64,000 nucleotides of DNA from Nothopassalora personata (lineage: Eukaryota > Ascomycota > Dothideomycetes > Mycosphaerellales > Mycosphaerellaceae): assembly GCA_033816765.1 (NCBI GenBank), contig CM066289.1:620001-684000 (forward strand), read 5' to 3'. Shown piece by piece: positions 641 through 54,109 of the stretch. A program made the position numbers and the translations under genes. The notes under the pieces are model-generated. The model searched no databases and was not told the origin of the DNA. It saw only the letters and a program-made list of their open reading frames with translations. Numbering within the stretch: the stretch's first letter is position 1; every line of letters starts with the position of its first letter.

Positions 641-1166
641 CTAGAAAACCCCCTCCAGTTCTTCGGGGCTACCTTTAGGAACGAGAAGACAGGACGAAGG
701 CGCGGAAAAGGCATCGACACCTACGCTCGGCAAACTACGAAGATCCTCGAAATCCTTCGCTATCGCCTTTTCCTCCCTATCCTTAGTAACGCGTAGCTGT
801 TTCCTAAGACGATACACCTTTAACATCGCCTCTATTACCTTCTCTTTAGCCTTATTAAGCTCTCGCTTTAGCTTTCGACGCTAGTTACGAAGCCGCTCCT
901 ACTTAGTCTACGTAATAGTTACGTTACACTTAATACCCTTACGAACGTACTCCGAGTAATACCTAAAGCGTATATCCACTACGTAACGAGGACTCTTCTT
1001 TCCTTTAGGTACTCTAGCCTTCTAGCAACTAGAACATAGGGATAGCATCTCGCGGCCCTCGGCTTCGATGCCTAGTACTTAACGTTCGCGGCGCTCATAA
1101 CGTATTAGCCGCTCGCCGCTTATAGTAAAAGATAGGAACTTATAGGAGAAGAAAGAAAACTCGAGG
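641..1166 (-). pseudogene. antisense Zn-cluster/coiled-coil accessory gene of E1 (RIP-damaged)
   Basis: On the minus strand, one reading frame runs from about 1166 (SFFSYK-like start, aligned to MSSSSYK of E7) to a TAA at 641-643 with only a few stops. It holds a Cys/Tyr array C-x2-C-x13-Y-x8-Y-x2-Y-x6-C followed by a Lys/Arg/Glu-rich helical stretch (for example RELNKAKEKVIEAMLKVYRL). The Tyr codons (TAC/TAT) are what RIP makes of Cys codons (TGC/TGT). It sits, convergent to pol, between the pol end and the 3' LTR like the intact homologues at 22530-23030 and 25687-26190. The exact start is uncertain because the ATG appears mutated. Confidence 0.65.
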
Positions 1167-8723: not shown

Positions 8724-9298
8724 ATGTCTTCCTTAATATACTAAAGGCTCCTTCTTCCTCGAGTACCTCTCGTCGTCTTAAGTTAGCGGAAACTATCGAT
8801 AACTTTAGAGAAATAATAGTGCGGTCCTATTCTAACTATCGGGCGCATTCGCGGGTATGTAAGGTGTACGTGTTATCGGGGCGGTATAATAAGTATATTC
8901 GTCGAAACATCCGTTATAACATAAAGGTGTCGCGTTCCGAGTTTAATCGCCTTATTAGTAAAAAGAAGAAATTGCAGCGGTAGATAAAGGAAGCCCGCGA
9001 GGCTTAAGAGCGTACTTACGAGGCCCTAAATACTACGTATATAAAGGAAGAACGGTTACGTAGGTAGATAGAGCTCGTAGATTAGAGAGCTAACGAGGCT
9101 ATTACCGTAGAGTCGGCGAACCTGTTAGAGCTAGAGTAGGAGGAGTTAGCGGACTTCTACCTAGCTCCTAACACTTAGAATCTCTTAGTCGATTAAGGTT
9201 ATAATGTCTCCTCCGATTTCTAGTTATATAGTCCTCCTTCTCTTCGAGGTTCTTCCGGTGCTAGAAATACTCTATTAGAAGTAGTCGGTAGTTCTTAA
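8724..9298 (+). pseudogene. antisense Zn-cluster/coiled-coil accessory gene of E2 (RIP-damaged)
   Basis: Begins ATGTCTTCC at 8724, as do the homologues in E5, E6 and E7. An indel after the start shifts the frame. The main frame carries Y-x2-Y-x6-C-x8-Y-x2-Y-x6-Y near 8850-8945, the Zn2Cys6-like spacing with five of six Cys codons turned to Tyr. A charged stretch follows (ISKKKKLQR..., YIKEERLR...). The end is uncertain: TAA at 9194-9196 may be a mutated CAA, and the frame continues to TAA at about 9298. It is transcribed toward the pol 3' end. Confidence 0.6.
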
Positions 9299-17944: not shown

Positions 17945-18423
17945 GTAGAACTAGAAGGAACGGAGAAATCGATCGCGTTATTAATAAAGTCGATCGAGGA
18001 CTATACCGTAGGGGATAGACTAATAGTCGCATCCGCGGTAGGACAATCAATATCCTTAATCTCGCCGGAGGCTTCTATCTTAGCCTCTAAACAAAGCGCC
18101 TTCTTACGCGCGCGCTCCTCCGCTTAGCGAAGTATTGCCTTCTTACGCATTAACCGCGCTAGGACTTCCGTAAGGTCCTCCTTATCCTTTTCGACCTTTT
18201 TCTTATACTCCTTACGAGTCTTATTAAGAGACTCCTAGGATAGGTTTACGCATTTACGCCCACGACGAATATACTCCGAGTACCGAAGACGGAAGTTTCC
18301 CTCTATAGTAACATAAGAAAGCCCGTTAAGAAAATAATAATCGTAGGTAAGATCTACTAGACGGCCGTATTCGTTAATCTCCTTTACTAGCCGAAGACGA
18401 TTCTTAGAAGATAAAGAAGATAT
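17938..18423 (-). pseudogene. antisense Zn-cluster/coiled-coil accessory gene of E3 (Cys-to-Tyr fossil)
   Basis: A 162-codon frame from 18423 (ATATCTTCT, RIP form of ATGTCTTCT) to TAG 17938-17940, nearly the same length as the intact homologues (166 and 167 residues). Tyr or Cys occurs at residues 27, 30, 37, 48, 51 and 58, exactly the six Cys positions of the intact E4 and E5 proteins. The first five are Tyr and only 58 is still Cys. A Lys/Glu-rich coiled-coil-like region follows (about residues 62-95). The upstream LTR and convergent pol are as in the other elements. Inactive, but the best fossil evidence for the conserved cluster. Confidence 0.75.
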
Positions 18424-21076: not shown

Positions 21077-21392
21077 TGTTACGGTCCGGTACGATCGTGC
21101 ACGTGGAAGAACTTCATTCGTTGGGAATAGGGACACGCGCTGCCAATGAGCGGGCGCTCTTGTGTGACTCATAGCAGAGCGCTCTTAGTGCTCTACCGAG
21201 AGAGCAGGACAGACCGCGCCAAGACATGGCACTATATAGACGACGCTCTTTTGCAAGTAGATAGGAGCTTCGTGCTCAACTCATTTTAAGTATACACCAT
21301 ATACTGTTTGGAACCACTACCTTCATAACTGATTGAGACATCCCTGCAAAGATCCAAGCCCGAGTTGTGATAACGTACAGCGGTTCCTAACA
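21077..21392 (+). repeat. 5' LTR of E4 (316 bp)
   Basis: TGTTACGGTCCGG to GCGGTTCCTAACA. Identical to 23134-23449 except one position near 21286 (T here, C there, in a CpA context). TATATA at 21233-21238. GTGCTCAA at 21272-21279, about 35-40 bp downstream, is complementary to the site just inside the LTR. Confidence 0.95.
21233..21238 (+). promoter_or_regulatory. TATA box of the E4 LTR promoter
   Basis: TATATA in ACTATATAGACG. It is the only good TATA match in the LTR and stands a normal distance before the proposed transcript start near 21265-21272. The 3' LTR copy is at the matching position. Confidence 0.6.
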
Positions 21393-21424: not shown

Positions 21425-22417
21425 ATGTCTGGGAGAGACGCTACCCGGAGTCCGTCACGACAACAGCCACAGTCAACTGGCATCACGGAACGAATGAGCG
21501 AAATGTCGATTACAGGAAGCAGCAAGAACAACAACACTCCTATGGGTATGCTGAACCCATTGGACCACCACCGTGCACCTAAGGTGTCTACGCCGGAGAC
21601 GTTCGACGGGACCAAGGACAAACTGGAGGCTTTTCAACTGCAGGTTCAGTTGTACCTTCACTTCAACGCACACCAGTTTCAAGGCGAGGCCTCTAAGGTC
21701 TTGTACGCCGCATCCTTCCTACGAGGAAAAGCAGCTAGAGGATTCCGACCATACCTCAAGGACTGGCTACACAACCAGGGCGAGGGAGAAACACCGAAAA
21801 CGGAAACTCGAAAAATTTTCCACGACTACGACGAGTTTGAGACGAAACTCGATGATCTATACGGGATACCAAATGAGGAGGTATACGCCGACCGACATAT
21901 CCGACAACTTCGACAGACTACTTCTGTAGCGCTGTACGCCTCAGAATTCCAAGGATATGCCGCCGACCTGGAATGGAACGACGCAGCTTTGCGATCGCAG
22001 TTCTACCTCGGGCTGAAAGACAACGTCAAAGCCGAACTATCCCGAAACGCCAGCGTCGTTACGCTAGGGGCGATGATCAAGGCAGCAAAGGAGATCGACG
22101 AAAGGCTCCAGGAGTTGAGGTACGACCGACACGTACAGCCTGGATACCAGAGACCCGCCGCGGGCGGAAGAGGGGGCTTCAAGGCCAGAAGTCAGGACCC
22201 TAATGGTTACGGAGACCCAATGGAATTGGACGTAACGGAACGTAGGACAGGAAGGGGGCTGAAGAGCAAAGGTTCCACCTGCTACGTATGTGGCGAGCAA
22301 GGCCACTTTGCAAGAAACTGCAAGAAGAAGAACATGGTTAGCCGCGAGTTCAACGCAATGATTCGCGAAGAGAATACATACCAGGAATGCGAGAACTTCT
22401 TCTCGAAATCTGCCTAG
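21425..22417 (+). CDS. gag: Gag-like nucleocapsid protein of the gag-only element E4
   Basis: 330 residues, intact. The structural protein of the retrotransposon particle, which packages RNA in the cytoplasm. The N-terminal 45 residues are Ser/Thr/Asn-rich. A retrotransposon gag (capsid-like) region spans about residues 55-225, with TFDGTKDKLEAF and SFLRGKAARGF. Then a Gly/Arg-rich linker, the motif MELDVT, and one CCHC zinc knuckle (C286-x2-C289-x4-H294-x4-C299). The E5 Gag has the same MELDVT-linker-knuckle order but is 698 residues, so this one ends soon after the knuckle. I chose ATG 21425 as the first ATG; the frame itself opens at 21419. No pol follows, so it probably helps mobilise the element in trans. 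Confidence 0.9.
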   Translation: MSGRDATRSPSRQQPQSTGITERMSEMSITGSSKNNNTPMGMLNPLDHHRAPKVSTPETFDGTKDKLEAFQLQVQLYLHFNAHQFQGEASKVLYAASFLRGKAARGFRPYLKDWLHNQGEGETPKTETRKIFHDYDEFETKLDDLYGIPNEEVYADRHIRQLRQTTSVALYASEFQGYAADLEWNDAALRSQFYLGLKDNVKAELSRNASVVTLGAMIKAAKEIDERLQELRYDRHVQPGYQRPAAGGRGGFKARSQDPNGYGDPMELDVTERRTGRGLKSKGSTCYVCGEQGHFARNCKKKNMVSREFNAMIREENTYQECENFFSKSA

Positions 22418-22529: not shown

Positions 22530-23030
22530 TTACGACGGATGGCCATCGGGCCACGAGAACGGAGAAGCGAGGCCGGCTCCAAGAAGATCGCTCTCGAGAC
22601 CAGGGAAGTCCGACAGTTCGGGGTCGTTCGGATCGAACTCTGTGTTGGCGGCGAGGTGGGCTACTTCCTCGTCGACCCGGGAGTTATTCATGTTTCGAAC
22701 CTCGCGATTGCGACGGATCCGCTGACGGAGAGCCTCGATCTTTCGGAAAATGTCTTCCGCGGAAATCTTGAGCCGCTCTATCTCCTGCTCGTCTGACTCG
22801 ATCTTCTCTGTCAACTCTTCCACGACGCGGTCGAGTTTCTCGAGGGAGGAGGTGACACAAGGTTTCCCGAGGCGGGTGCAGTTGGCACAAGACATGATGG
22901 AAAAATCGGCAATGTAAACGCAGGGGCGCTGATTCCGGCAACAGTGGTCGCAAGGTTTAGAAGGAACAAAGGGATCAGCAAAGATTTTAGCAAGACGACG
23001 TTTTTTGCGCTGGGCGGAGGACGAAGACAT
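22530..23030 (-). CDS. antisense Zn2Cys6-like/coiled-coil protein carried by E4
   Basis: 166 residues, intact, on the strand opposite to gag. Basic N-terminus (QRKKRRLAK), then C27-x2-C30-x6-C37-x10-C48-x2-C51-x6-C58, which fits the fungal Zn2Cys6 consensus (C-x2-C-x6-C-x5-12-C-x2-C-x6-8-C). Next EKLDRV and a coiled-coil-like charged stretch (about 63-120), then an acidic tail. The E5 homologue has the six Cys at the same residue numbers and shares CVYIADFS, CVTSS and EKLDRV. I chose ATG 23030 over the upstream 23096 because ATGTCTTC starts all homologues. CACGTG lies 64 bp upstream. A nuclear DNA-binding regulator is the likeliest role; this is inference, with no DNA target known. Confidence 0.8.
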   Translation of the reverse strand: MSSSSAQRKKRRLAKIFADPFVPSKPCDHCCRNQRPCVYIADFSIMSCANCTRLGKPCVTSSLEKLDRVVEELTEKIESDEQEIERLKISAEDIFRKIEALRQRIRRNREVRNMNNSRVDEEVAHLAANTEFDPNDPELSDFPGLESDLLGAGLASPFSWPDGHPS

Positions 23031-23093
23031 GGTAAGAAAAGGGTGGTTGCGGAATTTGAACTTCGGAGGACAGGACCTACTTATGACTAACGA

Positions 23094-23099
23094 CACGTG
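23094..23099 (-). promoter_or_regulatory. CACGTG box upstream of the E4 antisense gene
   Basis: Palindromic E-box 64 bp before the ATG, between 3' LTR and gene. E5 has the same TCACGTGT at a similar place (25629-25634). It suggests the antisense gene has its own promoter, separate from the LTR sense promoter. Confidence 0.4.
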
Positions 23100-23117
23100 A
23101 TCGCTGGGGCATCGATC

Positions 23118-23133
23118 CTAGGGAGGGGGATGG
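23118..23133 (+). promoter_or_regulatory. polypurine tract of E4
   Basis: AGGGAGGGGGATGG directly before the 3' LTR; the usual primer for plus-strand DNA synthesis in LTR retrotransposons. Related tracts precede the LTRs of E1 and E3 (GAAGGGGGATAG). Confidence 0.75.
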
Positions 23134-23449
23134 TGTTACGGTCCGGTACGATCGTGCACGTGGAAGAACTTCATTCGTTGGGAATAGGGACACGCGCTGC
23201 CAATGAGCGGGCGCTCTTGTGTGACTCATAGCAGAGCGCTCTTAGTGCTCTACCGAGAGAGCAGGACAGACCGCGCCAAGACATGGCACTATATAGACGA
23301 CGCTCTTTTGCAAGTAGATAGGAGCTTCGTGCTCAACTCATTTCAAGTATACACCATATACTGTTTGGAACCACTACCTTCATAACTGATTGAGACATCC
23401 CTGCAAAGATCCAAGCCCGAGTTGTGATAACGTACAGCGGTTCCTAACA
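23134..23449 (+). repeat. 3' LTR of E4 (316 bp)
   Basis: Identical to 21077-21392 but for one base. Near identity of LTRs means recent insertion, because LTRs are identical at integration. Confidence 0.95.
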
Positions 23450-23453
23450 TAAC

Positions 23454-24889
23454 GCTCTATGTAACCGGAGAGGCACGACCTAGATACTAAACTATAGGTT
23501 TACGTAATGTAGCGTCCCCTATCGTAGAATCGCGAACAGTCTAAAGCGATAGATGGTTGTTACTACAACTGTAGCAGTTCGAAGCACTAGGCTAGTAACT
23601 ATAGGGCGATAAGGTCCTTAATATCTCGGGGCTACGTACACCTTGCCCCGAATAACTAGTAGTATCTAGGGAAAGAAGGCGATCCGCGTCCTACCAAGTT
23701 CAACTTTCGGAGGGACTATAGTAAACCGAAACTACTCTATATGCTCCCTCTACTCGAAGAACATTATAGGCCGATCGAGTTTAATAACTAGTATAATATT
23801 TCTACACTACGTAAGTAATAGATAGGTAGGGACTATACTAGGGTAATAAAGGTTACGCCTCCTAATTATTCTAAGCCCCCTCCTAACTTTAGGCATTTAA
23901 TAGAGTATAGCCCTTAGGACGCACGGTCTAGCTAAATAGAGAAGGCTACTAGTACATATTAGGTCTTATTTGGAGAAAGTGAAGTGGAGTAGGCGGTCGA
24001 CTTAGGCGAGCTTAACGAGGTATCTGCCTATCCTATGCAGTCTAACAAAGTGAAAGGGAAGGCACCCGTAGGCATTCTAAAGAATCCGTACCCGAGGACC
24101 CGGTCCTTAGCCTAGGATCTACGAGCCCGAGCTAAGGCTACTAAGAAAGTTCGCCTACAATTAGAACAGGAGATCCGGTAAGCTAAGATTAACTAGTAGG
24201 AGGTTGAAATAATTAACGAAGTTAGTACTTAAATAAGCGAAACTTAATTATTAGCTAAATCCGGGGTAACCCTAGGAAGGGGAAATAATGCCTAAGTAAA
24301 TAGATTAGGGAACGATGCTAATAAAGGACTGCCTAAGGATATGCCTATTAGTCCCGTAAACGCCCCCTTCGCATAAAGAAAGCGTATATAGAATGCTAAG
24401 ACTATAAGGATTAATAACTACGTCCGACAATATAGTTTAGCTAGTAATAGCCCGGTTATAAAGGAAGAGGGTATTATCTACTAGATTAATTAGATCCTCT
24501 AGACAACGTTTCCTAATGTAAACGCCTAAGATTAGTTTCGATATAGTCGCTAGTTCGAGGCTACCCTCTTCGGTCGCGTTACTAACACCCCCGATCTTTA
24601 GGAGAAGCTTGCTATAGTACGACGCCTTATAGGAAAGGACCCTAAGGTTCGCACTAGATAAGTAGTCACCTGTGAAGATAAACCTAAGTATAATAAGGAG
24701 GTCTTCCGCGAAGATAGTTAGGCCTAGTATGTCGGAGTATATTTAACTATACTTTACTCTAAAGGAGCGGTCCCTACTACTAAGCTCTATAAGGACGTTA
24801 AGAAAATCGGGCTCTCTAGTGTCCTTAACAACTTTACTATAGTCCCTAGTCCTTAGGTAGTAGCGGAGTTCGGGATAAACAAGAACTAG
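23454..24889 (+). pseudogene. giant-element gag/pro region, second part (RIP-inactivated)
   Basis: Continues the EB gag after E4. Plus-strand frames with RIP stops read as a charged, Arg/Lys/Glu-rich protein (for example KKVRLQLEQEIR near 24150) and, before the protease, VTCEDKPKYNKEVFRED and KKIGLSSVLNNFTIVPSP (24670-24860). I see no clear zinc knuckle. It runs without an obvious break into the protease segment at 24890. Confidence 0.55.
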
Positions 24890-25214
24890 ATTAGGTGCCT
24901 AATTAACGAGGGTTCCGAGGTAAATATTATCGGCTAGAGGAACGCTTATAGATTTAGGTTACCGGTAATGTCGAGTACTTAGCTTACCTTTCGAGGTGCT
25001 AGAGGGCGGGCCTAGTTTAAAGGTGTTGTAGGCAATTTAGATGTTTAGGTATTTAGGGTTTACTACTAAATAGACATGTTTATCTCCTCGGATCTAAACT
25101 TACTAACAATCCTAGGACGTCCGTAGGCCCGTAAGGTGCAACTTACTACCCGTAACTACGATAATGGTTTATAGGAGGGGACTATTACTAGCCGCAAAGG
25201 TAAAAGTGTTATGT
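24890..25214 (+). pseudogene. pol: giant-element pol, copy B: protease segment before E5
   Basis: Aligns with 1624-1950 of copy A. CLINEGSEVNIIG at the start is a retropepsin-like active-site region (D replaced by N), and LTILGRP resembles the second retropepsin motif. The frame is cut by E5 and resumes at 32095 after the duplication TATGT. Confidence 0.7.
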
Positions 25215-25592
25215 TGTTATGTCTCGTTCCAGGGCTAATCTCAAGGGGGGAGAGAAGTCAAGTCACGTGGCGGTATTCTTTGGAGAGGCTGAGGCGAGCT
25301 GAGAGCGAAGTGCAATAATTGGAGTAAGAGGTGTATTCCAATCAGTGAGATAGTAACATGAGTTGAACGCCTCGAAGCCATAAGGGTTTCTCAGCGTTCC
25401 TAAATACATAGGAGAATGCTTCTGGCTCGAAGCTCTTGGCAGGCGCGCTGTGTCGCGCTGGCTCGACATTGCGCAGGCTCGACAGCCGTCGCGCTCTTGC
25501 AGCGTCGCGCCATATCTTATTGGTCCTTGCTTCCTGTGAGCTGTAGGGCGTCCATTGGCTGGGCAGTGTCCTCGTCATATTGATCCGTAACA
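25215..25592 (-). repeat. 3' LTR of E5 (378 bp)
   Basis: Plus-strand reading TGTTATGTCTCGTTCC to TGATCCGTAACA. R/U5 (left part on this strand) is homologous to that of E1, E6 and E7; the U3 part is unique in the window. Contains CACGTG near 25263. Confidence 0.95.
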
Positions 25593-25613
25593 CCATCTCC
25601 CTCCTTCCTTTGG
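25593..25613 (-). promoter_or_regulatory. polypurine tract of E5
   Basis: The minus strand reads CAAAGGAAGGAGGGAGATGG directly before the 3' LTR; the expected plus-strand primer. Confidence 0.75.
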
Positions 25614-25628
25614 CCGTGTCCTCACGGT

Positions 25629-25652
25629 CACGTGTTAGTAAGATGATATAAT
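25629..25652 (+). promoter_or_regulatory. putative promoter of the E5 antisense gene
   Basis: CACGTG at 25629-25634 and an AT-rich GATATAAT at about 25645-25652, some 35-55 bp before ATG 25687. The E-box recurs before the E4 homologue. The close placement suggests a short leader; no transcript evidence. Confidence 0.4.
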
Positions 25653-25686
25653 CAGGGTTGTCCCCGCCCTCGTGGATACTGTAACG

Positions 25687-26190
25687 ATGTCTTCTCGCAA
25701 GTCCTCCGACCGTCATTCTCGCCATCGACGAATACTCGCCAATCCCCTCGACGCTCCAGTCCCTTGCGATTTCTGCTCTTCTCGTAGCCGTTGCTGCGTA
25801 TACATCGCGGATTTTTCCCTTATGCCTTGCGCAGAGTGTGCTCGTCGCGGCAAGGAGTGCGTCACTTCTTCCTGGGAGAAGCTAGACCGGGTGGACGACG
25901 CTCTCGCGGCTAGGATCGAGGCCGATAAGAAAGAGATGGACGAGACAACGCGAGAAGCTCTTCGGTTGTTTTCTCGCATGTCGGAGCTCCAGGCGCGGAT
26001 AGATCGCAACTCGAAGGTCCGGGATGCGAACAACAAACTGCTGAACGCGAAGATTGCGTGCGTCTCCCGGGAGGTATCCTCCTCGAATATCGATCCTCCT
26101 CCGGATCTAGAATCATTCGCCCAAGACTTGGAGGCTATTGGTGTGGCGTCTCCATTTGTCTTCTCCGGGAGTTCTGAAGTTCGATTATAG
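25687..26190 (+). CDS. antisense Zn2Cys6-like/coiled-coil protein carried by E5
   Basis: 167 residues, intact, opposite strand to gag-pol. Basic, Ser/Arg-rich start, then C27-x2-C30-x6-C37-x10-C48-x2-C51-x6-C58 (extra Cys at 36), the spacing of a Zn2Cys6 DNA-binding cluster. EKLDRVDDAL and a heptad-like charged region (about 62-115) suggest a dimerising coiled coil; the tail is acidic and Pro/Ser-rich. The E4 homologue shares CVYIADFS, CVTSS, EKLDRV and the SPF near the end. The frame opens at GTG 25672, but ATG 25687 matches the homologues. Its TAG (26188-26190) lies six bases from the pol stop, so the two genes are tail to tail. It could regulate LTR transcription or silence competitors; neither is shown. 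Confidence 0.8.
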   Translation: MSSRKSSDRHSRHRRILANPLDAPVPCDFCSSRSRCCVYIADFSLMPCAECARRGKECVTSSWEKLDRVDDALAARIEADKKEMDETTREALRLFSRMSELQARIDRNSKVRDANNKLLNAKIACVSREVSSSNIDPPPDLESFAQDLEAIGVASPFVFSGSSEVRL

Positions 26191-26196
26191 CGTAGG

Positions 26197-29100
26197 TCAC
26201 TCTCGTTCCCGAAATTGTTTGATCCTTTGCTGACAGTTCTGAAGGTTCTTTTCTGGTTCCCAGGTATTTTCTGAGTCGTCGTATCCTTTCCATTTGACGA
26301 GGTAGTGCTGACCTCGCTTTTGCAGGATCTTTTCGACTTCGAATTCGTCTTCTTCTTCCGTCTGGAAATGGAATGTCTGTTGGCATGGTGTTTTGGGGTC
26401 TGCTGGTTCTAGCTTGGAAATGTGGAATACTGGGTGGATTTTTGCGTCCTTTGGCAATTGCAGTCGGTAGTTGGTTGGTCCTCGTACTTCCTCAACGAGA
26501 AATGGTCCGACTTTCACATGGTCCAGTTTTTTGGTCTTCCTTCTTGTTCTCAATTTTGCGGTAAGGAGGTAGACCTTATCCCCCTTCTTAAGCTGAGGTG
26601 CCATTTGTCGTTTCGCTCGTGTTTTCGTAAGTATTGTCTGTTGTTGTTGAATTCTGGAATTGAGCTTGTCGTGTATTTTTCGTAGGCTCTCTGTAGCCGT
26701 AATTGCTCTTTCCGCTTGCGGGTGGCCTTGCCGTTCTCCGAACAGGTTTGGATGCTTGCCGTAGTTGGCGAAGAACGGTGTCTCTTTTGTAGTTTCTGAT
26801 TCGTGATTGTTTAGTGCAAGTTGTGCCATAGGTAGGAGTGATACCCAGTTGTCTTGTGCGTAGTTGACGTAGTGTCGCAGGTACTGTTCCAATGTCTGAT
26901 TTGTTCTTTCCGTCTGACCGTCCGTCTGTGGATGGTACGCCGTGGACAGCTTGTGTCGTATACCAATTTCTGCTACAAGGGTCTTCCAGTAGTTTGATGT
27001 AAATAGCTTGTCTCTGTCTGTAATGAAGACTTTGGGGAATCCGTGGTACCGTACTAGTCTATCGAGAACGAGGTATCCGAGTTGTTCTGCTGTGTATGTC
27101 TCGCTAGCAGGTATGAAGTGTGCATATTTGGTTAGTCGATCGACCATAACAAGTATCATGTCGCACCTTGTCCCGTTTGCTTTGTCCGTAGAGATAGGGA
27201 GCTTTGTAATGAAGTCCATCGTAACTTCTTCCCATGGTTGTGTCGGTGGTGTCCTGAACTGTATTTCTCCGTACTTCTCGTGTCTTGCAGCCTTGTTTCG
27301 TTGGCAGTGTGTGCATTCTTTGATGTACTGAAGCACCTTTTGTCTCATCTGTGGGAAAGAGAAGCTGCGTCGTATGATCTCGAGAGTCTTCGTGGTTCCA
27401 GGATGTCCGTATACGGGGTTGTCGTGATGTTGCTGTATGCATTCTTGTTCTCGTTCCTTCGGTACTTGGTATTTTCCTTGTGCTAGTGGGAACTGTTCTT
27501 CTGTGTCCTGAAGAACGCGCACTATGCTGTTAAACTCCTTTGTGTTGGCGCTAAGACTTCCGTCGTGGTTAGTCTTCAATATTTGTTGCTGCACTGGTTC
27601 TTTTCCTTCCATGTAGTCGCTTCTTCGGCTCAGTGCGTCGGCCCTGCCGTTGTCCTTTCCGGGTGTATAGCGGATTTCGAACTTGTACTGACCAAGCAGT
27701 TCCGACCAGCGGGACTGTCTTCGTGTCAGCACTTTCGTCGTAGTGAAGTAAGTGAGATTCTTGTGATCAGAAAGAATCGTCAGCTTAGGTGCTCCTTCCG
27801 CGTATACCCTCCAGTGCTGCATTGCAGCGACAATAGCGAGAAGTTCTTTATCATGGATGTCGTAGTTTCGTTCCGCGGGTGTCATTTTCCTTGAGTAATA
27901 GGCCACTGGGTGTCGTTTCCCATCATGCTCCTGCGTGAGGCATGCTCCTATAGCCATGTCCGATGCGTCAGTCTCAATCTGGACTTCTTTTGTGCCGTCG
28001 AATAATCGTAGTGTAGGTGCTCGGGTGCATTGTTCCTTCAGTAGTTGGAACGCTTGTTGTTCTTTGCTGCCCCATTTCCATTTGGTATCCTTTCGTGTGA
28101 GCGCTGTCATAGCCGCAGCTGTCTTAGAGTAATCCTTGATGAACTTCCTGTTGTAGTTCGCGAGTCCTAGGAAGGATTGTACGTCCTTGACATTAGCTGG
28201 TGTCGGCCATTCTTGGATAGACTGTGTCTTTGCTGGGTCGATCTGGATTCCTGTTGTGCTTATAATAAATCCAAGGAATTTGACTCGTTTCTTGTGGAAT
28301 TCGCATTTCTCTGGTGCCGTCTTGAATCCTGCGCGGGTAAGGCGCTCGAAGACGTCCTGGACCCGTGTAATGTGTTCCTGTAGCGATCCTCTAGTATAGA
28401 CGAGGATGTCGTCCATGTAGGCAATAACGCACACGTCGAGAAGGTCTCTCAGTGTCTCATTGACTAGATCTTGACAGGATGCAGGTGCGTTGGTTAACCC
28501 CATAGGCATAACCAAGAATTCGTAGAGTCCGTATCGTGTTCTAAATGCGGTTTTCCATTCCTCTCCTTCTGCCATGCGTATAGCGTAGAAGGCGTCTCGT
28601 AGATCGATCTTCGTGTACCAGTCTGATCCAGTAAGTCTGTCCTGTGCTTCTTCGATATTCGGTAGTGGGTATCGGTTCTTGATGGTGATCTCGTTCAACT
28701 TTCGGTAGTCTTGGACGAGTCGTAGTTTCCCGTTCTGCTTTGGAACAAACATACATGGAGTTCCCGCGCTTGAGGTGGACCGTCGTATCCATCCTTTGGC
28801 GAGTTTCTCCTTCAGCCATTCTCGTAGGGTTTCTAGCTCTTTCTCGGACATTTGATATAGGGGTCCCCATGGAGGCTCTTTCCCTGGCTGAATGTTTATC
28901 TTGTGGTCCCATGGTTGATGTTTAGGTAAGGCGTCTTTGCCCTTTTCCTCTTCAAAGAGCCTCTTCCACTTGAGGTACTCCTTGGGGATAGCTGGTTCCG
29001 ATATGCCAGTATCCTTCGATGGTGCGTTACGTCCATCCGTTCCAGTGACTTCGTGATCCGGCGGCCCCACGCCAGTATCTGTCCCGGTCGAAGGTGGTTC

Positions 29101-29601
29101 TTCTGTCCTTCTGTTCGGCGCAAGCTCGAATGCGTTGAGCTGTTTCCTTGCCTCATCTACCATCGTCCGCTGTCGATGCGTAGGCTGAATGCCAATAACG
29201 CAATTGCATTCCCTAAATGTGAGTACTCCTCTCCTCCAGTCGATTGCTGGGTTGTGCTGTCTCAACCAAGGCATACCTAATACTATGTCATGACTGGCCA
29301 TATCAGTGACATCCAAGGTAATATTCTCGTGGTGCTGTTGGATAGCCAGTGGCAATGGTGTCGTCTCCCATTCCACGTTAGGTAACGATGATCCGTCTAC
29401 CGCGATCAACTCGTAACCCCATTTCTTCAGGGTAGCTAACCCGTTTCTTCTTGCGAAAGACTTGGAGACAAAATTCCCCGCTGCTCCGGAGTCGATCATG
29501 ACACTAGTTCTGTGTCCGTTGACGATTGCTTTGGTTTGGAAAACTGTTAGTGATGTCGATGCTCGAGCTTCTGTGTTGCATAACTCCCTTTGGCCGCTCA
29601 T
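26197..29601 (-). CDS. pol: Pol polyprotein of E5: protease, RT, RNase H, integrase, chromodomain
   Basis: 1134 residues, intact. Retropepsin: active site DSGA at 38-41. RT: about 240-460, with D333 in KIDLRDAF and YMDD at 395-398. RNase H: D545, E586, D612, D655. Integrase: zinc finger with H733, C763 and C766; catalytic D796, D862, E898 with 35 residues between the last two (DD35E). C-terminal chromodomain about 1085-1130 (HYLVKWKGYDDSENTWEPE). This makes cDNA in the particle and inserts it in the nucleus; the chromodomain places it among Ty3 chromodomain elements of the Tf1/sushi type. ATG 29601 overlaps the gag stop as ATGA, so it is expressed by reinitiation or -1 frameshift. TGA stop at 26197-26199. 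Confidence 0.95.
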   Translation of the reverse strand: MSGQRELCNTEARASTSLTVFQTKAIVNGHRTSVMIDSGAAGNFVSKSFARRNGLATLKKWGYELIAVDGSSLPNVEWETTPLPLAIQQHHENITLDVTDMASHDIVLGMPWLRQHNPAIDWRRGVLTFRECNCVIGIQPTHRQRTMVDEARKQLNAFELAPNRRTEEPPSTGTDTGVGPPDHEVTGTDGRNAPSKDTGISEPAIPKEYLKWKRLFEEEKGKDALPKHQPWDHKINIQPGKEPPWGPLYQMSEKELETLREWLKEKLAKGWIRRSTSSAGTPCMFVPKQNGKLRLVQDYRKLNEITIKNRYPLPNIEEAQDRLTGSDWYTKIDLRDAFYAIRMAEGEEWKTAFRTRYGLYEFLVMPMGLTNAPASCQDLVNETLRDLLDVCVIAYMDDILVYTRGSLQEHITRVQDVFERLTRAGFKTAPEKCEFHKKRVKFLGFIISTTGIQIDPAKTQSIQEWPTPANVKDVQSFLGLANYNRKFIKDYSKTAAAMTALTRKDTKWKWGSKEQQAFQLLKEQCTRAPTLRLFDGTKEVQIETDASDMAIGACLTQEHDGKRHPVAYYSRKMTPAERNYDIHDKELLAIVAAMQHWRVYAEGAPKLTILSDHKNLTYFTTTKVLTRRQSRWSELLGQYKFEIRYTPGKDNGRADALSRRSDYMEGKEPVQQQILKTNHDGSLSANTKEFNSIVRVLQDTEEQFPLAQGKYQVPKEREQECIQQHHDNPVYGHPGTTKTLEIIRRSFSFPQMRQKVLQYIKECTHCQRNKAARHEKYGEIQFRTPPTQPWEEVTMDFITKLPISTDKANGTRCDMILVMVDRLTKYAHFIPASETYTAEQLGYLVLDRLVRYHGFPKVFITDRDKLFTSNYWKTLVAEIGIRHKLSTAYHPQTDGQTERTNQTLEQYLRHYVNYAQDNWVSLLPMAQLALNNHESETTKETPFFANYGKHPNLFGERQGHPQAERAITATESLRKIHDKLNSRIQQQQTILTKTRAKRQMAPQLKKGDKVYLLTAKLRTRRKTKKLDHVKVGPFLVEEVRGPTNYRLQLPKDAKIHPVFHISKLEPADPKTPCQQTFHFQTEEEDEFEVEKILQKRGQHYLVKWKGYDDSENTWEPEKNLQNCQQRIKQFRERE
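29598..29601 (-). promoter_or_regulatory. ATGA gag stop / pol start overlap
   Basis: The minus strand reads ATGA: pol ATG and gag TGA share two bases, putting pol in the -1 frame. In E2, E6 and E7 the same place reads ATAA (RIP form), so the arrangement is ancestral. It points to termination-reinitiation or -1 frameshifting for pol synthesis. Confidence 0.75.
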
Positions 29602-31694
29602 TCCTGGGGAGCTGATCCTTTTCCCGAATGGTATGTGGTTCGCTGTGCTTCGTGCCTAGATGCTTCGGGTAGAACCTGTAGCCCGTTGCTCTGTGTCCAC
29701 ACCTGTAGTTTGTTGCGTTCCTGGATCTTCTGCGATTCTGAGTAGAGAGCACGTACGTGCTGTACTGCTTGGCGTAATTCGTTGGATACAAATATCCCTG
29801 ACGGTGTAAGGTACCCGGTACCTATCATCTTGCTTCCTATTGGTGGTCGCTCGGTCATTGCTCGCATAGTGTCGAGTGTCTTGTCAAATTCGACTGGATG
29901 CAAGTATCTCTTGCCCGAGACCTTGGGTAGGAATTCTTCGTGCTTGCGCGTCAGATAGACAATAATGTCGTAGAACTTCTTGGGTGCGTCTATCGTGAAC
30001 GTCAAGACTTCATTGTCGTCGTCAGTTTCGCTCTCTTCTCCTTCGGATGAGTCCTCGCTCGACTCTTCCGGGGTATGATCTTCTTCGATGGTATCCAGGG
30101 TTTCTTCTTGTTGTACGGGGGACCATCGTCCATCCCATGTTGGTTCCTGGTTTTCTTTGTCTTCATCATCGAAGCAAGACTCATCAATGTCCACTTCTCG
30201 GAGCCTGGCATCTTGCCTGTGCTGAGCTCCCAGGGTTCTCCTTGGCTGTTGTGGCCAATACCCTGCTCCTTCCTTCGCGGAGTAGTGGATCGAGCACGAG
30301 TCTTGGTAACAGAAGCTCCAATGAAGGGTTCCGTGACCATTTCGAGGGCCCGTAGCAGCCTCGTTTCCCCGCGCTATCATGCCGAATTCTCGTTTCTCCT
30401 GTCGTTCGATCTCGCTGGTTATTTCCCACCATCGCTTATGGAGGTCGTCGTGTTGTTGTATAGCTGTGAGATCTATCCGGTCCTCGTGAAGATACATCCA
30501 GGTGTCAATCTGGTCGAATGCATTATCGAGGTCGTTCCTTTCCTGGAGAAGTTGTTCGAGTTCGCATGTTTCTGTGAACTGTTGTGGCTGGTCCTCTTGA
30601 CCATGGTATCCTCCTCGTCCCATCGAGGGGTCCAAGGAAGGTCCTTCGTTAACTCTTCCTTCCACTCCCTGAGTATAGTCGGTGTCTCCCAGAGTCCCAA
30701 CGCTGCTCCCAGGTTTACTAGTTCGTGGTTGCATCATGTTGAACTGCTCGCGGCGCACCATATTTTTACCGCGGCAATCCCGCGCCATGTGGCCTTCCTT
30801 GCCACACGCGTAGCATGTCGGTTTTCCTTTTCCCTTGAAGGGCTTTCCTCGGCCCTTGCCTCTGTCGATCCTTTCTCCTCGTTGGGTAACGTCCAGCTCC
30901 ATTGGTTGTGGTCCGTAGTAGGGCTGGTTGTGTCGCGGAAAGTTCCCCTTCGCAACGTAGCCCGTAGAAGGCTTGCGATCCGGAACGTATCCTGCCATGC
31001 CTCCCACTTTGGAGTCGTATTTCTTTTCCTGGTAACGTTCCCACAACTGATCGTCGATCTCAATCGATGCTCGCATCAGTCGCTCGAGGGTGTCGACCTG
31101 TCCTCCGTGTCTCATGAGCTCGTCCTTGACGGAGTCCTTGAGTCCACGTCTGAACATTGTCATCAACGCCGTCTGGTCCCATCCGGTAATCTGTCCGTAT
31201 TCTTCAAACTTGGCCGCGTACTCCGAAGTAGACGTCTTCTGCTTCAGGTGTTGGATTATTCGTATGGCCTGTTGAACCTCGTTGGAAGTCCCAAAGATAG
31301 ACTTCATCTTGTCCTTAAAGAGGGTGTAGTTCCTGAACATTCCGGTGGGGTCTCGTTGTCCCATACCGTCAAGGTATTCCTTGAGGTACGGCTTGATCCA
31401 GTTCTGCGCGCTTCCACGAAGGAACGTGATGGCGAAAATAGTTCTCTTGTCGGAGTCGACTGGGTTGAACATGAGGTACATATCCATTTGATTGACCCAA
31501 TCATCGAACTTGGCCCTGTCTCCATAGAAGAGGTCCGGCTTGGCAGCCTTAACGTCCTTCTTCCTAGGAACGGGTTCGTCGTCGTCATCAGACTCATCGT
31601 CCTTCATGGTGGTTTGTTGCGGTGGCGCACGGCGGATGCTTCCTGCTTCGCTGGGGGCGGGTGTTCCCCTACCAGCTGCCTGAGTAGCACTCAT
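29598..31694 (-). CDS. gag: Gag polyprotein of E5
   Basis: 698 residues, intact, structural protein of the particle. The start is ATG 31694; the frame opens upstream at a TTG at 31709. An acidic patch (DESDDDDEP, about 33-41) precedes the capsid-like gag region (about 50-225, with FYGDRAKFDDWVNQMD and FLRGSAQNWIKPYL). A Gly/Lys-rich linker with MELDVT leads to a CCHC zinc knuckle C294-x2-C297-x4-H302-x4-C307. The roughly 390 residues after the knuckle are unusual: Gln/Glu-rich, with acidic runs near 530-570 (EEDHTPEESSEDSSEGEESE). That tail is present in fossils E2, E6 and E7 but missing in E4. TGA at 29598-29600 overlaps the pol ATG. Confidence 0.93.
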   Translation of the reverse strand: MSATQAAGRGTPAPSEAGSIRRAPPQQTTMKDDESDDDDEPVPRKKDVKAAKPDLFYGDRAKFDDWVNQMDMYLMFNPVDSDKRTIFAITFLRGSAQNWIKPYLKEYLDGMGQRDPTGMFRNYTLFKDKMKSIFGTSNEVQQAIRIIQHLKQKTSTSEYAAKFEEYGQITGWDQTALMTMFRRGLKDSVKDELMRHGGQVDTLERLMRASIEIDDQLWERYQEKKYDSKVGGMAGYVPDRKPSTGYVAKGNFPRHNQPYYGPQPMELDVTQRGERIDRGKGRGKPFKGKGKPTCYACGKEGHMARDCRGKNMVRREQFNMMQPRTSKPGSSVGTLGDTDYTQGVEGRVNEGPSLDPSMGRGGYHGQEDQPQQFTETCELEQLLQERNDLDNAFDQIDTWMYLHEDRIDLTAIQQHDDLHKRWWEITSEIERQEKREFGMIARGNEAATGPRNGHGTLHWSFCYQDSCSIHYSAKEGAGYWPQQPRRTLGAQHRQDARLREVDIDESCFDDEDKENQEPTWDGRWSPVQQEETLDTIEEDHTPEESSEDSSEGEESETDDDNEVLTFTIDAPKKFYDIIVYLTRKHEEFLPKVSGKRYLHPVEFDKTLDTMRAMTERPPIGSKMIGTGYLTPSGIFVSNELRQAVQHVRALYSESQKIQERNKLQVWTQSNGLQVLPEASRHEAQRTTYHSGKGSAPQE

Positions 31695-31700
31695 CCTGAG

Positions 31701-31711
31701 GGCGTTCAAAG
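31701..31711 (-). promoter_or_regulatory. primer-binding site of E5 (self-priming type proposed)
   Basis: The minus strand reads CTTTGAACGCC directly after the 5' LTR. Its complement GGCGTTCAA occurs in the LTR leader (31860-31868, minus strand), about 35 bp from the TATA-like TATTTA. No TGG start for ordinary tRNA priming. Confidence 0.6.
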
Positions 31712-32089
31712 TGTTATGTCTCGTTCCAGGGCTAATCTCAAGGGGGGAGAGAAGTCAAGTCACGTGGCGGTATTCTTTGGAGAGGCTGAGGCGAGCTGAG
31801 AGCGAAGTGCAATAATTGGAGTAAGAGGTGTATTCCAATCAGTGAGATAGTAACATGAGTTGAACGCCTCGAAGCCATAAGGGTTTCTCAGCGTTCCTAA
31901 ATACATAGGAGAATGCTTCTGGCTCGAAGCTCTTGGCAGGCGCGCTGTGTCGCGCTGGCTCGACATTGCGCAGGCTCGACAGCCGTCGCGCTCTTGCAGC
32001 GTCGCGCCATATCTTATTGGTCCTTGCTTCCTGTGAGCTGTAGGGCGTCCATTGGCTGGGCAGTGTCCTCGTCATATTGATCCGTAACA
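31712..32089 (-). repeat. 5' LTR of E5 (378 bp)
   Basis: Same sequence as 25215-25592 by eye. TATA-like CTATGTATTTAGG (minus strand) near 31900-31911 gives a start near 31870. The segment CGAGGCGTTCAAC begins the presumed transcript and pairs with the site just inside the LTR. Confidence 0.95.
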
Positions 32090-32094
32090 TATGT

Positions 32095-35000
32095 TTACTA
32101 CCCTAGTTAGCTCGGATAGGTACAAGACCCTTTAAGAACTGTTAAAAGCGTCGGGAAATAGAAGGGTAGGTTAAGTTACGGCGCTTAACCTACCGATTTA
32201 CTAAAGCCGGATTTAATAAAATCAGTAAGGTTCTCGCACTATCTCGGAGAAACCTCGGACTTTAATTTACCGGTCCCGGGACCGGTAAATAGCTATAGTA
32301 AGGAAAACGGATACGACTACGGCACGACGTAGCTATAGGAAGGCACGACGCATCTATAGGAACCTGGTAAGGCTCTAACGCCTAGTAACCATTTAGCTTA
32401 CTTATTAGGATTACTTAGAAGTGCTAGAACAAAGGAACGAGTTGTAGAAATTGGAACAGGCGCGTTTAAGGGAGATTCTATTACTAACGTTTATTCAGTT
32501 TAAGGAGATTAGCCCTCCGAGATCCTAAGGCAATCTGCATTAAATACTTAGGCACGGAAGCAATAGGTAGGCTAACATATAGCTAACATTAGGATGCCGT
32601 AGGTCTTTACGATGTATAAGCGTAAGGCGGATAAGAAGAAGCTAGTAGACGCAAGCGTTTACGAACGCCTAGAATCACGAGTTAAGGGAGATATAGAATA
32701 GAAGCGTAGGGTACTATACCTAGAATCTAAGATGCCTAAAGGACAAGGTCCGTTCGATAGGAAGTACTTAACTAAGAAATTCTCAAGTATTAAGCGAGGT
32801 AGCCGAATTACTCTAGAACGACTTACCTTAATTAAGGTTAGTATTAAGCTATTACTAATGGAAAGGGCCTTATTCGATGAGATACTCTATAACCGGGAGG
32901 CAGTCCTCGCTTGGGACTTTAGTCACATAAGGCAAATTAGGCACGACGTCGTACTACCTTAGAAGATTAACACGGTCCCTTGTAGGCTATAGTAGGCACG
33001 CCCTATCCGGTTGTACCTAAGTCTTAGGGCAATTGTTAAGCGCATAATTAGAGCCCGGATTAAGAACAACATCCTAGAATACTTACAAGGGGCATACTCT
33101 AATAGCTAGTTCCTAGTTGTAAAGAAGATTAATGCCTCTAGAAGCGATATGCTATATCGGTTAATTAACTTAGCTATACTCCTAAATGAGGTTACTATAC
33201 GCGATGCTAACATTCCACCGGACACGGATAGCTTCTTAGAGGATTTTGCCGGTTGCCGAGTCGCTTCACTTATAGACCTGTTTTTAGGTTATAATTAGAT
33301 TACTTTAGATAAGTCCTACCGGGACTTAATAGCCTTCATGACCCCTCTTAGCCTAGTACGTAACACGACTCTACCTTAAGGAGCTACTAATTCAGTTACT
33401 TAGTTCGTGCGTACGGTAATAAAGATACTACTTAATTATATCTCGCATCGAGCGAAGCCGTTCCTCGATAACATCGGTATTAAGGGACTAACTAAGGACT
33501 ATAGGAACGTAGAAGTAGAGCCTAGGTTAAGGAGATAGGTCGTTAAGCACATTGTTTCCCTAGATCTAGTTCTTACTAACCTAGAGAGAGCTAGTACGGT
33601 GGTTACTAGAGGCAAATCCTAATAGTTATATAAAAAGCTTAAGATTGTTAGGTACGTTACTAGCCCGGATAGTCGCTATCCTAACCTAAAGGTTATAGTT
33701 AAGATCCTAGACTAGCCTACGCCTACCTATATTAAGGAGGTCCGTACCTATGTAGGGCTATGTGTATACTTCCGGATATAGATTCCCTAGTTCGTTATTA
33801 TCGCTCGACTAATGTACAAGCTACTAAAGAAGGGCGCCGAGTTCACCTAGATAGAAAATGAGCAGTTCTTAAAAGAAGAGGTTACTAGATATCTTATGTA
33901 GGCTCTAGCCTTAGTTACCCTCTACTACTTACCTAGTGCTAGGTCTATCTTTGTCTTAGTTAATGCTAGCGGCACTAGATAGGGATGTATCGTTTCTTAA
34001 GAATTAATAGACAGTACTCGACGGCGTCACCTAGTGCGGTATAAGAGTAGAATCTAGAACGCGTTAGAATCTAGATATAATGCTAGTAAGCGGGAATGCC
34101 TTAGGGTCCTTAAGGGGCTTAAGAAGATCTAGAGATATATTACTAGCGTTGATTTTATCCTTAAGGTTAATACTAAGACACTTATATAGTAGCTTAACCG
34201 GCCGGCTTCGGACCTACCGAACTCGGCAATGGCCCGGTAGGTCGCATAGATTAGGCTATTCACATTCGAAGTAAAGCACGTTACGGGAGCTAGGCATACT
34301 AGCCTAGATGCCCTGTCTCGCAGGCCCTCTACACCTTAGGAACCTAGAGAAGCTAACGAAGACGAAGTCGACCGGATGATTAATAATAAGCTATTCGGGT
34401 ACCTAGAGCCGGTCGACATATATCCAGTTAAAATCTAGAAAGCACGACATCTCGGGGACTAATATTCTAAGGGCTCTTAATAGCTTACTTAGGTTATAGA
34501 AACTAGGACCTAACCCGATAGTGTTACCCGTACTAAGTACCGGCGGCTAGTAAAGAAGAGCGTTAACTTCTTTATCCGAGACTAATTACTATTCTTCTAG
34601 AAGCGCCGAGGAGTACCGTTATAACTTATAATTAACGATAATAAGGCTTAGAAGGAGATCGTTATAGAATGCTATAAAAGACACGGTTATCGCAGCGCTA
34701 AGGTCGTGTATAACCTTATTTCCGATCGGTATTACTAGGACGGGTGCTTCGCCGATGTCTCTACGTAGGTTCGAAGTTATACTCCTTATAGGTTTCGCGA
34801 AGGCAACTAGCGCGCTAGTAAGCTTCACTTATCGAGCCCTTAGGTCATTAGTAAGAAGTAGTACTCGGACCCCGTCTAGGTACATAAAAATAGATACCTC
34901 CTAGTTGCGCGCGAAGCACTTAGTAACTAGATCGAGGCTAGAGTAATAAGGGTACCTCCTAGCTTTAAGACGGTTACTAAGTTTCTATATAAAGATGTCT

Positions 35001-39331: not shown

Positions 39332-39895
39332 ATGTCTTCTTCCTCCTAATCTAAATCTACCGCTCGCCGTAAGAAGAAAGCCTAGTAGATCTTTCGTAAC
39401 GGCGATACCGCGATGCGTCCGTGTGATTCTTATTAAAAGGAGGGCCGTATGTGCAAGGTGCACATCTTATCTAGTCGCTGTTCCGAGTGCTAGCAGCGGA
39501 ATCTAAAGAGTTGCAATACGAGGGTAACCGAGGGCGAGTAGAAGCGCTTATCGCTTTAGCGGAAGAAATTGTTATAGGAACTAGATACCGCGAAGAGGAT
39601 TCTTAGTAAAAGGTAGGATGCCTTAATAGAAGCGTATATAAAGGAAATGCGCCTTCGTAAGCAATTGGATACGGTTAATTAGAAGGTTGCGGAGGGTCGT
39701 TCGTTAGAAGATCGGTTATTACTAGACGAGGATCTAGGGGCGTAGGAGTACGCTATAGTAGACGCAGATCCTAGTGCTCCTAATCTATCCTTGTCTCCTT
39801 AGACCTAGAGTGCTATCGAAGGTCTTCCGGACGACTTCTAGCTTTCTCCTTCTAGCGAGACGGTGCCGTCGGTAGCTTAGCCGTCTCCTTCGTAA
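39332..39895 (+). pseudogene. antisense Zn-cluster/coiled-coil accessory gene of E6
   Basis: 188 codons in one frame from ATGTCTTCTTCC (39332) to TAA 39893-39895, with about a dozen internal TAG/TAA of the RIP type. C31-x2-Y34-x6-C41-x8-C50-x2-C53-x7-C61, a Zn2Cys6 pattern with one Cys turned to Tyr. Then a charged helical region (RKKL..ELDTAKRILSKR, EAYIKEMRLRKQLDTVN) and an acidic tail. It lies between 3' LTR and tRNA-like sequence, convergent to pol. Non-functional now, but the intact frame length shows it was a protein gene. Confidence 0.7.
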
Positions 39896-53314: not shown

Positions 53315-53387
53315 CTATCCCCTTGTTAGCCTAGCTTCGTCCCGAAGCTTCTTAAGCCGTTATCATTTCTTGTAGTAATAGTTAACT

Positions 53388-53927
53388 ATGTCTTCTTCCT
53401 CCTATAAACGCCGTTATCGACTTACTCTAGATACTAAAATTTCCGGTATCGAAATAGCTCTATACACGAATTGTTAGAAGTCTCGATCCTCGGGCGTAGT
53501 AGTAAAGTGTATCGTAGGTTCTCGGTCTAGGAAGTGTTCGGCCTACATTCGAAAAGGCTATAAGGATTGCGATATACGTCTTTCTCGTCCGGAGTAGGAA
53601 CGTCTTCGCGATTCGCGCGATAAGCTTAAGCTAGAGCTTAAGAGGATTAAAGAGGAGGAGGTGCGGCTAAAGATACGTAAGATCTGTCTTCGGAAATAGC
53701 TACGATTAGCTAAGCGTCGTACCGACGATACCGTCGCTAAGGAGTTAGAGGAGCTCGAGGAGGAAGAGGCGCGCGAGGAGCTAGCGTCTCTTAAGCGGGC
53801 GTCGGGGGTAGAGGTGTCGCCTTCGCTAGTCTCCTTCTCGGATATCCTAGAGATGCCCGTAAATAACTAGGCGGCGCTTTCTAGAGCGGAGCCTTAGGAC
53901 GAGTCCCTAGGGGTAGAGACTTATTAG
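53388..53927 (+). pseudogene. antisense Zn-cluster/coiled-coil accessory gene of E7
   Basis: 180 codons from ATGTCTTCTTCC (53388) to TAG 53925-53927, with only a few internal TAG. Cys/Tyr array Y26-x2-C29-x11-C41-x8-C50-x2-Y53-x7-C61, close to E1. Then a long charged helix: ERLRDSRDKLKLELKRIKEE, KRRTDDTVAKELEELEEEEA; strongly coiled-coil-like. It has the least frame damage among the fossils, so its CpG-rich codons may have few RIP targets. Confidence 0.7.
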
Positions 53928-54040: not shown

Positions 54041-54109
54041 CTTCCGGCCGACTAGTCGCTAATCGGTAACTTAGTCGGCTAGTCGTTTTTTTGTTTTATA
54101 GTATTCCTA

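Follow-up and report, generated by a model that had tools for sequence, protein, structure and literature searches.

A Zn2Cys6-like antisense gene and the U3 of its long terminal repeat as a putative self-regulating cassette in Ty3 retroelements of Nothopassalora personata

Why do the Ty3 retroelements in a stretch of 64,000 nt from the fungus Nothopassalora personata (assembly GCA_033816765.1, contig CM066289.1, positions 620,001 to 684,000; hereafter the window) carry an additional gene on the strand opposite to their gag and pol genes, close to the 3' long terminal repeat (LTR)? An earlier note on this DNA had proposed that the gene, present in all seven elements counted (E1 to E7), encodes a transcription factor-like regulator with a Zn2Cys6-like cluster and a coiled coil. 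The analysis reported here supports that interpretation and suggests that the regulator would act on the LTR of its own element. Both intact open reading frames (ORFs) described, those of E4 and E5, are present as stated (Table 1), with six cysteines at residues 27, 30, 37, 48, 51 and 58 that are invariant in a seven-sequence alignment. Searching the whole window by tblastn with 19 antisense proteins yielded seven places, one per element, each antisense to the adjoining pol or gag and each nearest to a different type of the protein (I, O, F, E4, E5, M and Q). Five of the genes (E1, E2, E3, E6 and E7) are fossils with 2–15 stops in the best alignment, that of E3 being partial (E = 4e-11), and no such place was found by tblastn beside the weaker pol traces of the window (22–39% identity) at 3039–3980, 33158–34324, 51133–52476 and 59882–60898. 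The position between pol and the 3' LTR, which had been claimed for the gene in general, applies to E5 and the fossil elements; in E4, where pol is absent, the gene follows gag.

Queried with the E4 protein, the species' own genome (54.5 Mb, 40 contigs) yielded at least 111 matches at E ≤ 1e-3 among the 150 candidates scored out of 201; those free of stops fall mainly into identity classes of 99–100, 63, 61, 40–41 and 26–27%. With a 50-residue piece from another type as query, at least 150 matches were obtained, 150 out of 437 candidates being scored. From the part of the copies that was fetched we defined 19 types, 13 of them on a gag-only element (E4, B, C, D, F, G, H, I, J, K, Lm, S16d and T16e) and 6 on pol-bearing elements (E5, M, N, O, P and Q), where M, N, O and P come from one partial copy each and Q from two (L049–L054); the genome may hold further types. 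Relatives exist in other fungi (Cercospora, Elsinoe, Hortaea, Aureobasidium, Sporormia and Bathelium; of 7998 candidates scored, at least 180 proteins reach E ≤ 1e-3). Among the 120 matches listed, some lie on contigs of about 6–7 kb and three bear UniRef names reading Zn(2)-C6 fungal-type domain (P0055, P0061 and P0095). A search for the E4/E5 branch returned 14 relatives, including Sporormia and Cercospora, and an alignment of the antisense proteins found none in the viral contigs scanned. A chance ORF was set aside, since the E4 protein has matches throughout the genome and the frames stay open despite near-saturated synonymous divergence.

Zn2Cys6 clusters are DNA-binding domains of fungi with the consensus spacing CX2CX6CX5-12CX2CX6-8C, which the spacing in E4 and E5 (CX2CX6CX10CX2CX6C) meets. 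The six cysteines are the only invariant columns in the alignment of the 19 types. In six of these (H, I, J, K, Lm and Q) the loop between Cys2 and Cys3 is longer and falls outside the strict consensus. Pfam PF00172 (Zn_clus) scores 10.1 and 11.4 bits for E4 and E5 against a gathering cutoff of 21, for which reason we call the protein Zn2Cys6-like and not a member of the Pfam family. One type in 19 matched PF00172 at E ≤ 0.1 (best 3.6e-4), other Pfam matches mostly look like coiled-coil noise, and Pfam alone would have missed the family. The best match in a sequence search of the PDB was LAC9 (E = 0.062). AlphaFold 2 models of types N and E5 (mean predicted local distance difference test scores of 87.6 and 81.8) contain two short helices in the cysteine region followed by a long helix of 81 or 70 residues, respectively. 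When they were compared with the PDB by Foldseek (E ≤ 10), type N matched two structures, both of Pho7, and E5 matched five (AlcR, the CBF3 complex, Pho7 twice and HAP1); the predicted fold may resemble a zinc cluster, as proposed, the nearest solved folds being mostly Zn2Cys6 factors, every one with a weak score. The proteins are about 155–240 amino acids long, with a net charge of zero or above N-terminal to the first cysteine in all 19 types, and with a net negative charge over the last 60 residues in all 19 (−1 to −16, mean −8.6), which include 2–8 aromatics. A protein of this kind probably binds zinc and DNA. In type G (L027:606-1070 and upstream) a conserved basic N-terminal region is in frame with no ATG before it, so that the start of this type is uncertain and may be non-AUG or spliced.

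Selection has kept the antisense protein, because its cysteines are invariant and its dN/dS, estimated by the Nei-Gojobori method in ten pairs, is 0.16–0.26 rather than near 1 in the six that were computable (E4/B 0.16, E4/C 0.20, H/K 0.16, N/O 0.24, E5/D 0.25 and E5/E4 0.26), at dS values of 1.6–2.6 that are themselves near saturation; in B/C, M/S16d, J/Q and K/Q dS was saturated and gave no finite ratio.

E4 consists of LTRs, gag and the antisense gene in 2373 bp (about 2.4 kb). Having LTRs and gag, no pol and many near-identical copies (122 gag copies scored of 1049 candidates), it fits a non-autonomous gag-only LTR element, which must borrow pol, having discarded its own. In the 78 pairs among the 13 gag-only types, gag DNA is 95.6–100% identical (median 98.9) and the last 150 nt of the LTR have a median identity of 94.6% (minimum 69.4, with type D as the outlier), whereas the antisense proteins share 23.6–64.7% (median 32.8) and the upstream part of the LTR a median of 72.9% in gapped alignment. 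E4 and B, for instance, differ at 5 of 990 nt in gag, and the dS between their antisense genes is 1.94. Identity profiles of five pairs in 100-nt steps run at about 93–100% in gag, 73–89% in the spacer region and 34–90% in the antisense gene and the U3 (the part of the LTR upstream of TATA and R), and then return to 82–100% near TATA and R. Because a near-identical gag stands beside a diverged gene and U3, with identity restored near TATA and R, the sequences indicate that 3' cassettes are exchanged and not mutated in place. Strand transfer at R together with one template switch close to the end of gag or pol during reverse transcription would exchange exactly this block, and would account for one gag carrying 13 cassettes. 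Among pol-bearing elements, the 600 nt of pol compared are 95.0–96.5% identical in M, N and Q, and the type N antisense protein has 37% identity to that of M and 35% to that of Q; for reverse transcriptase, 150 of 1940 candidates were scored, and the 106 copies without a stop are 95–100% identical.

The gag-only element has mostly retained the antisense gene. An antisense match adjoins 98 of the 122 scored gag copies, and 20 of the other 24 were fetched, 18 of them containing a full-length antisense gene and 2 internal deletions. Conversely, among the matches listed (the types of unfetched copies being taken from coordinates and identities), those adjoining this gag were 26 of 26 in E4, 5 of 5 in B, 7 of 7 in C, 14 of 14 in F and 4 of 6 in D, where the other two also have gag (L019 and L020); with the scored gag copies as reference, G gave 26 of 32, S16d 11 of 14 and T16e 5 of 6. 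In E5 and four other pol-bearing classes the figure was zero (0/9, 0/24, 0/5, 0/15 and 0/17). Since these pol-bearing classes never pair with this gag in the matches listed by class, those matches offer no pol-bearing source from which the gag-only cassettes might have come. If the gag-only promoter needs a family-specific protein, the element itself would be the sole source seen, which we regard as the strongest functional argument.

The U3 that accompanies the gene differs type by type between the LTR start, TGTTACGG in all 19 types examined, and TATA. Among the gag-only types TATA, R and U5 resemble one another, except that D diverges at the end, and those of the pol-bearing types form a second set, alike within itself. 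U3 type and gene type agreed in 43 of 43 scorable gag-only copies (46 gag copies in fetched loci, minus two without a detected LTR pair and one skipped), and the fossils still carry gene and U3 of the same type in E2 (O/O), E6 (M/M), E7 (Q/Q) and, weakly, E1 (I/I, score 39 against 30 for a shuffle). Gene and U3 are inherited together. The U3 of E3 found no match among those of the 19 types; beyond window position 18411 it holds an array of about 33 bp in three copies and represents a further type outside the 19.

Short motifs are repeated in the variable U3: TGATCTC/GAGAGCA in M, TGATCA in N, GATCTG in O and S16d, GAGAGCA in G, AAGAGATC in H, CGAGCAGA in C, GGTCGA/CGACCA in B, GCGACG in P, and GCGCGA and CGAGCC in E5. 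Repeated 6-mers exceed those of dinucleotide shuffles at p < 0.01 in 15 of 19 types; by the same shuffles the R-U5 part shows no excess in any of the 19 even at p < 0.05, and the p < 0.01 controls gave 1 of 56 slices of antisense coding sequence and 0 of 11 slices of E4 gag. Inverted repeats, which would suit sites for a dimer, reach p < 0.05 in the U3 of 7 types against 1 of 19 in R-U5. TGNTC half-sites, a motif picked after viewing the sequences, number 137 against 40.5 expected, with p < 0.01 in 12 of 19 types. Measured from the end of the variable U3 that faces TATA, they lie at 5–195 nt (most ≤ 130), a location to be expected of upstream activating sites. CACGTG-like motifs, perhaps sites of a host basic helix-loop-helix factor, recur besides the type-specific arrays, e.g., in N, Q, F, I, S16d and Lm; 8 of 19 types had a count of two or more for ACGTG/CACGT, with 1.4 expected (one CACGTG counts twice).

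We consider it somewhat probable that each family maintains a self-activating circuit, encoding its own activator and the cognate U3 sites and exchanging the two as one 3' cassette. The antisense product would be a small self-contained activator, with a basic N-terminus, a Zn2Cys6-like DNA-binding cluster, a long dimerising coiled coil and an acidic C-terminus containing aromatics and leucines. Its promoter most likely lies in or near the U3 of the 3' LTR, because the gene is read away from that LTR. The same U3, repeated in the 5' LTR, would offer family-specific clusters of short sites upstream of the conserved TATA and R-U5, and by binding them the protein would drive itself from the 3' LTR and gag or gag-pol from the 5' LTR. 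The result would be a private positive-feedback circuit whose gene and U3 travel together as a single 3' cassette. We infer zinc and DNA binding, activation, autoregulation and template switching from sequences and models. More tentatively, we propose that the genome houses mutually orthogonal, element-encoded factor/promoter pairs, whose cassettes might be swapped between elements by template switching, also onto a gag-only parasite that lost pol yet retained its private switch. If true, these would be regulatory specificity groups comparable to the immunity groups of phages, with many families sharing one genome and a single set of core proteins.

Several points weigh against the activator circuit, and they are gathered here with the explanations that they favour. 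The main rival, which we judge unlikely, is a self-repressor serving immunity or copy-number control, which would bind the same U3 sites and silence its family as copies build up. New cassettes would then win, being unrecognised by resident repressors as in phage immunity groups, and strong selection for novelty and exchange is predicted. A repressor accounts better than an activator for the many divergent cassettes on nearly the same gag, and in keeping with it the stretch from Cys1 to Cys3, which we take to carry the base contacts of Zn2Cys6 clusters, is clearly less conserved than that from Cys3 to Cys6 in eight of ten pairs (amino-acid identity 0.11–0.33 against 0.70–0.81 in E4/B, E4/C, B/C and H/K, 0.21–0.22 against 0.62–0.67 in M/S16d, J/Q and K/Q, and 0.38 against 0.70 in E5/E4). 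This contrast, however, is weak in N/O (0.56 against 0.65) and absent in E5/D (0.38 against 0.39), the acidic C-terminus with its aromatics and leucines, net negative in every type, resembles an activation domain, and the sites are found upstream of the core promoter, the usual position for those of an activator.

Further difficulties for the activator circuit lie in the relation between protein and U3. Plain U3 identity shows no correlation with that of the proteins (rho 0.10, p = 0.41), for which reason motif spectra were used; across the 19 types these correlate weakly with protein similarity (Mantel r = 0.18, p = 0.04; R-U5 control r = −0.06, p = 0.75), with p = 0.06 for the zinc cluster alone and r = 0.12, p = 0.15 for the 13 gag-only types. 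U3 motifs are common to H/K and J/Q (98th percentile) and, in the same comparison, were not shared in E4/B, E4/C or N/O. A correlation this weak is expected of a family with fast-changing specificity, but could also result from chance and linkage. The repeat excess stays at p ≥ 0.01 in K (0.018), Lm (0.060), E4 (0.56) and I (0.63), and that of TGNTC fails in E4, D, I, Lm, S16d, E5 and P. Over the 200 residues of pol that lead up to the chromodomain motif, E5 and P form one group and M, N, O and Q another (47–50% identity between the two; L049–L053, L017), which suggests exchange inside pol too, and because of this split the claim of a constant core is safest, among pol-bearing elements, for M, N and Q. 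The weak Mantel correlation would agree with a second rival, to our minds quite improbable, in which the U3 repeats are slippage arrays or host-factor sites and the protein does another job (tethering of the integration complex to DNA, nuclear import, or as an RNA/DNA chaperone), gene and U3 travelling together solely because template switching moves the 3' part that contains them. The mostly regular 8-bp arrays of C and H and the recurrence of the CACGTG-like host site in U3 are in line with this, but in M, N, O and F the arrays have motifs on both strands at irregular spacing, and the excess of repeats, like most of the inverted repeats, is a property of U3 and not of R-U5.

A captured host transcription factor, whether passenger or acting on host genes, was set aside as very improbable. 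Zn2Cys6 factors are abundant in fungi, and a 762-aa ORF in L028 has a C6 pattern and a weak match to the E4 protein; against this, one short architecture is found in the seven window elements and the 19 element-borne types, the gene stays open in a gag-only family that has lost pol, and related proteins occur in other fungi. That the antisense RNA (control by double-stranded RNA) is the function and the protein incidental, an idea raised for plant antisense ORFs in the accessible text of PMC7264820, is hardly credible here and was likewise set aside, given a dN/dS and invariant cysteines that show selection on the protein.

How much of this is new? The earlier note knew of no standard Ty3 gene of this kind, which is too broad for antisense genes before the 3' LTR, already known from Boty elements and from plants; the part that may be new is the combination of a Zn2Cys6-like gene, U3 arrays and swapping. 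The description of brtn in Boty-like Ty3 elements is reportedly owed to Zhao and colleagues in 2011. As far as the accessible texts go, brtn of Botrytis cinerea is an antisense gene between pol and the 3' LTR (PMC7264820, PMC8365987), a Boty-like element combines it with a gag-pol ending in a chromodomain (PMC4227169), and a BRTN-like sequence occurs in a Monilinia transcript (PMC5987419). By position brtn resembles the gene of E5 and the fossils, one antisense gene between pol and 3' LTR in a fungal LTR element, but a zinc cluster, U3 site arrays and cassette exchange are not reported for it in the accessible parts of PMC7264820, PMC8365987 and PMC4227169. The same position is taken by the plant aORF-3R genes (maize Grande gene23, rice RIRE2, Silene Retand and PvRetro13), for which the accessible text of PMC7264820 gives a nuclear location of Grande GENE23, a suggested regulatory role, no clear similarity to known proteins except an SMC domain in PvRetro13, and an unknown function; cognate LTR sites, a point of difference, are not described there.

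With Gal4-type factors (Gal4, HAP1, Put3, Ppr1, Pho7, AlcR and Leu3) the antisense protein shares six cysteines and, as modelled, two short cluster helices, a linker and a long, possibly dimerising helix; it differs in being encoded by the element, in E4 and E5 scoring below the Pfam cutoff, in lacking a large regulatory domain and in the longer Cys2-Cys3 loop of six types. Element-encoded regulators of the own LTR are known in retroviruses: HBZ of human T-cell leukaemia virus type 1 is an antisense coiled-coil regulator expressed from the 3' LTR, and Bel1/Tas regulates the LTR of foamy viruses. By analogy these might be considered the nearest functional relatives, although their folds are unrelated, and we know of no retroviral trans-regulator that is swapped together with U3 on a constant core. 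Lambdoid phages do exchange regulator and sites as a module on a shared genome, in their immunity regions, but these are repressors of DNA phages and not the probable activator of an LTR retroelement. The titles and abstract beginnings searched in the open-licence literature describe no Zn2Cys6-like antisense Ty3 gene, with or without matching U3 arrays, no swapping of this kind, and no fungal LTR element that encodes a factor acting on its LTR. If true, the circuit would mean that retroelements can diversify by swapping regulator and promoter on an almost constant core. The 19 natural pairs of protein and site array are a dataset for learning how Zn2Cys6-like proteins choose DNA, and a possible source of orthogonal gene switches for yeast. 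Antisense genes, which recur in the Ty3 elements of fungi and plants, would also gain a testable function, their role being called unknown in the accessible text of PMC7264820.

Table 1. Positions in the window of the antisense genes and of the other parts of E4 and E5.
Feature	Position	Strand	Remarks
E1 fossil antisense gene	668..1108	-	closest to type I
E2 fossil antisense gene	8729..9295	+	type O-like, with O-like U3
E3 fossil antisense gene, partial	18076..18411	-	closest to type F; U3 matches none of 19 types
E4 5' LTR	21077..21392	+	variable U3 ~21085-21216; TATA-like box ~21230-21239
E4 gag	21425..22417	+	330 aa, CCHC; near-constant across the gag-only family
E4 antisense gene	22530..23030	-	intact, 166 aa, Zn2Cys6-like coiled-coil protein (type E4)
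E4 3' LTR	23134..23449	+	variable U3 ~23142-23273, just upstream of the antisense gene
E5 3' LTR	25215..25592	-	variable U3 ~25418-25584, GCGCGA / CGAGCC repeats
E5 antisense gene	25687..26190	+	intact, 167 aa, Zn2Cys6-like coiled-coil protein
E5 pol	26197..29601	-	intact; protease, reverse transcriptase, RNase H, integrase, chromodomain
E5 gag ORF	29598..31709	-	listed from TTG; capsid, CCHC
E5 5' LTR	31712..32089	-	
E6 fossil antisense gene	39332..39892	+	type M-like, with M-like U3
E7 fossil antisense gene	53382..53924	+	type Q-like, with Q-like U3

E5 is a complete Ty3 chromodomain element with LTRs, the antisense gene and, by Pfam, a CCHC gag, the order protease, reverse transcriptase, RNase H and integrase, and a chromodomain, the rve integrase core scoring 30.9 against a cutoff of 32.6. 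Its gag ORF as listed starts at TTG, compared with 698 aa from ATG for a same-type copy in locus L017. No matching target-site duplication flanks E4 (GCAAC/TAACG); perfect 5-bp duplications are present in many fetched gag-only copies (e.g., L003, L005–L007, L034, L038 and L042). Degraded copies in the genome are broken almost solely by TAG and TAA stops, the pattern that repeat-induced point mutation would leave. Gag-only elements also occur in tandem arrays sharing LTRs, as at G000:C12:1355698-1366475, where six antisense matches are 2056 bp apart, and in L024, with two tandem copies 2100 bp apart.

Between the antisense gene and the end of pol, types M and Q contain a tRNA-like sequence on the strand of the antisense gene (window 53967-54041 (+); L053:1146-1220, L054:1130-1204 and L049:1220-1297), with CTA in the anticodon loop and motifs resembling the A and B boxes, as judged by what we take to be their consensus. 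Because its anticodon stem is imperfect, it may be a tRNA-derived RNA polymerase III promoter or a boundary rather than a suppressor tRNA. It matches at least 40 places in the genome (40 of 344 candidates scored).

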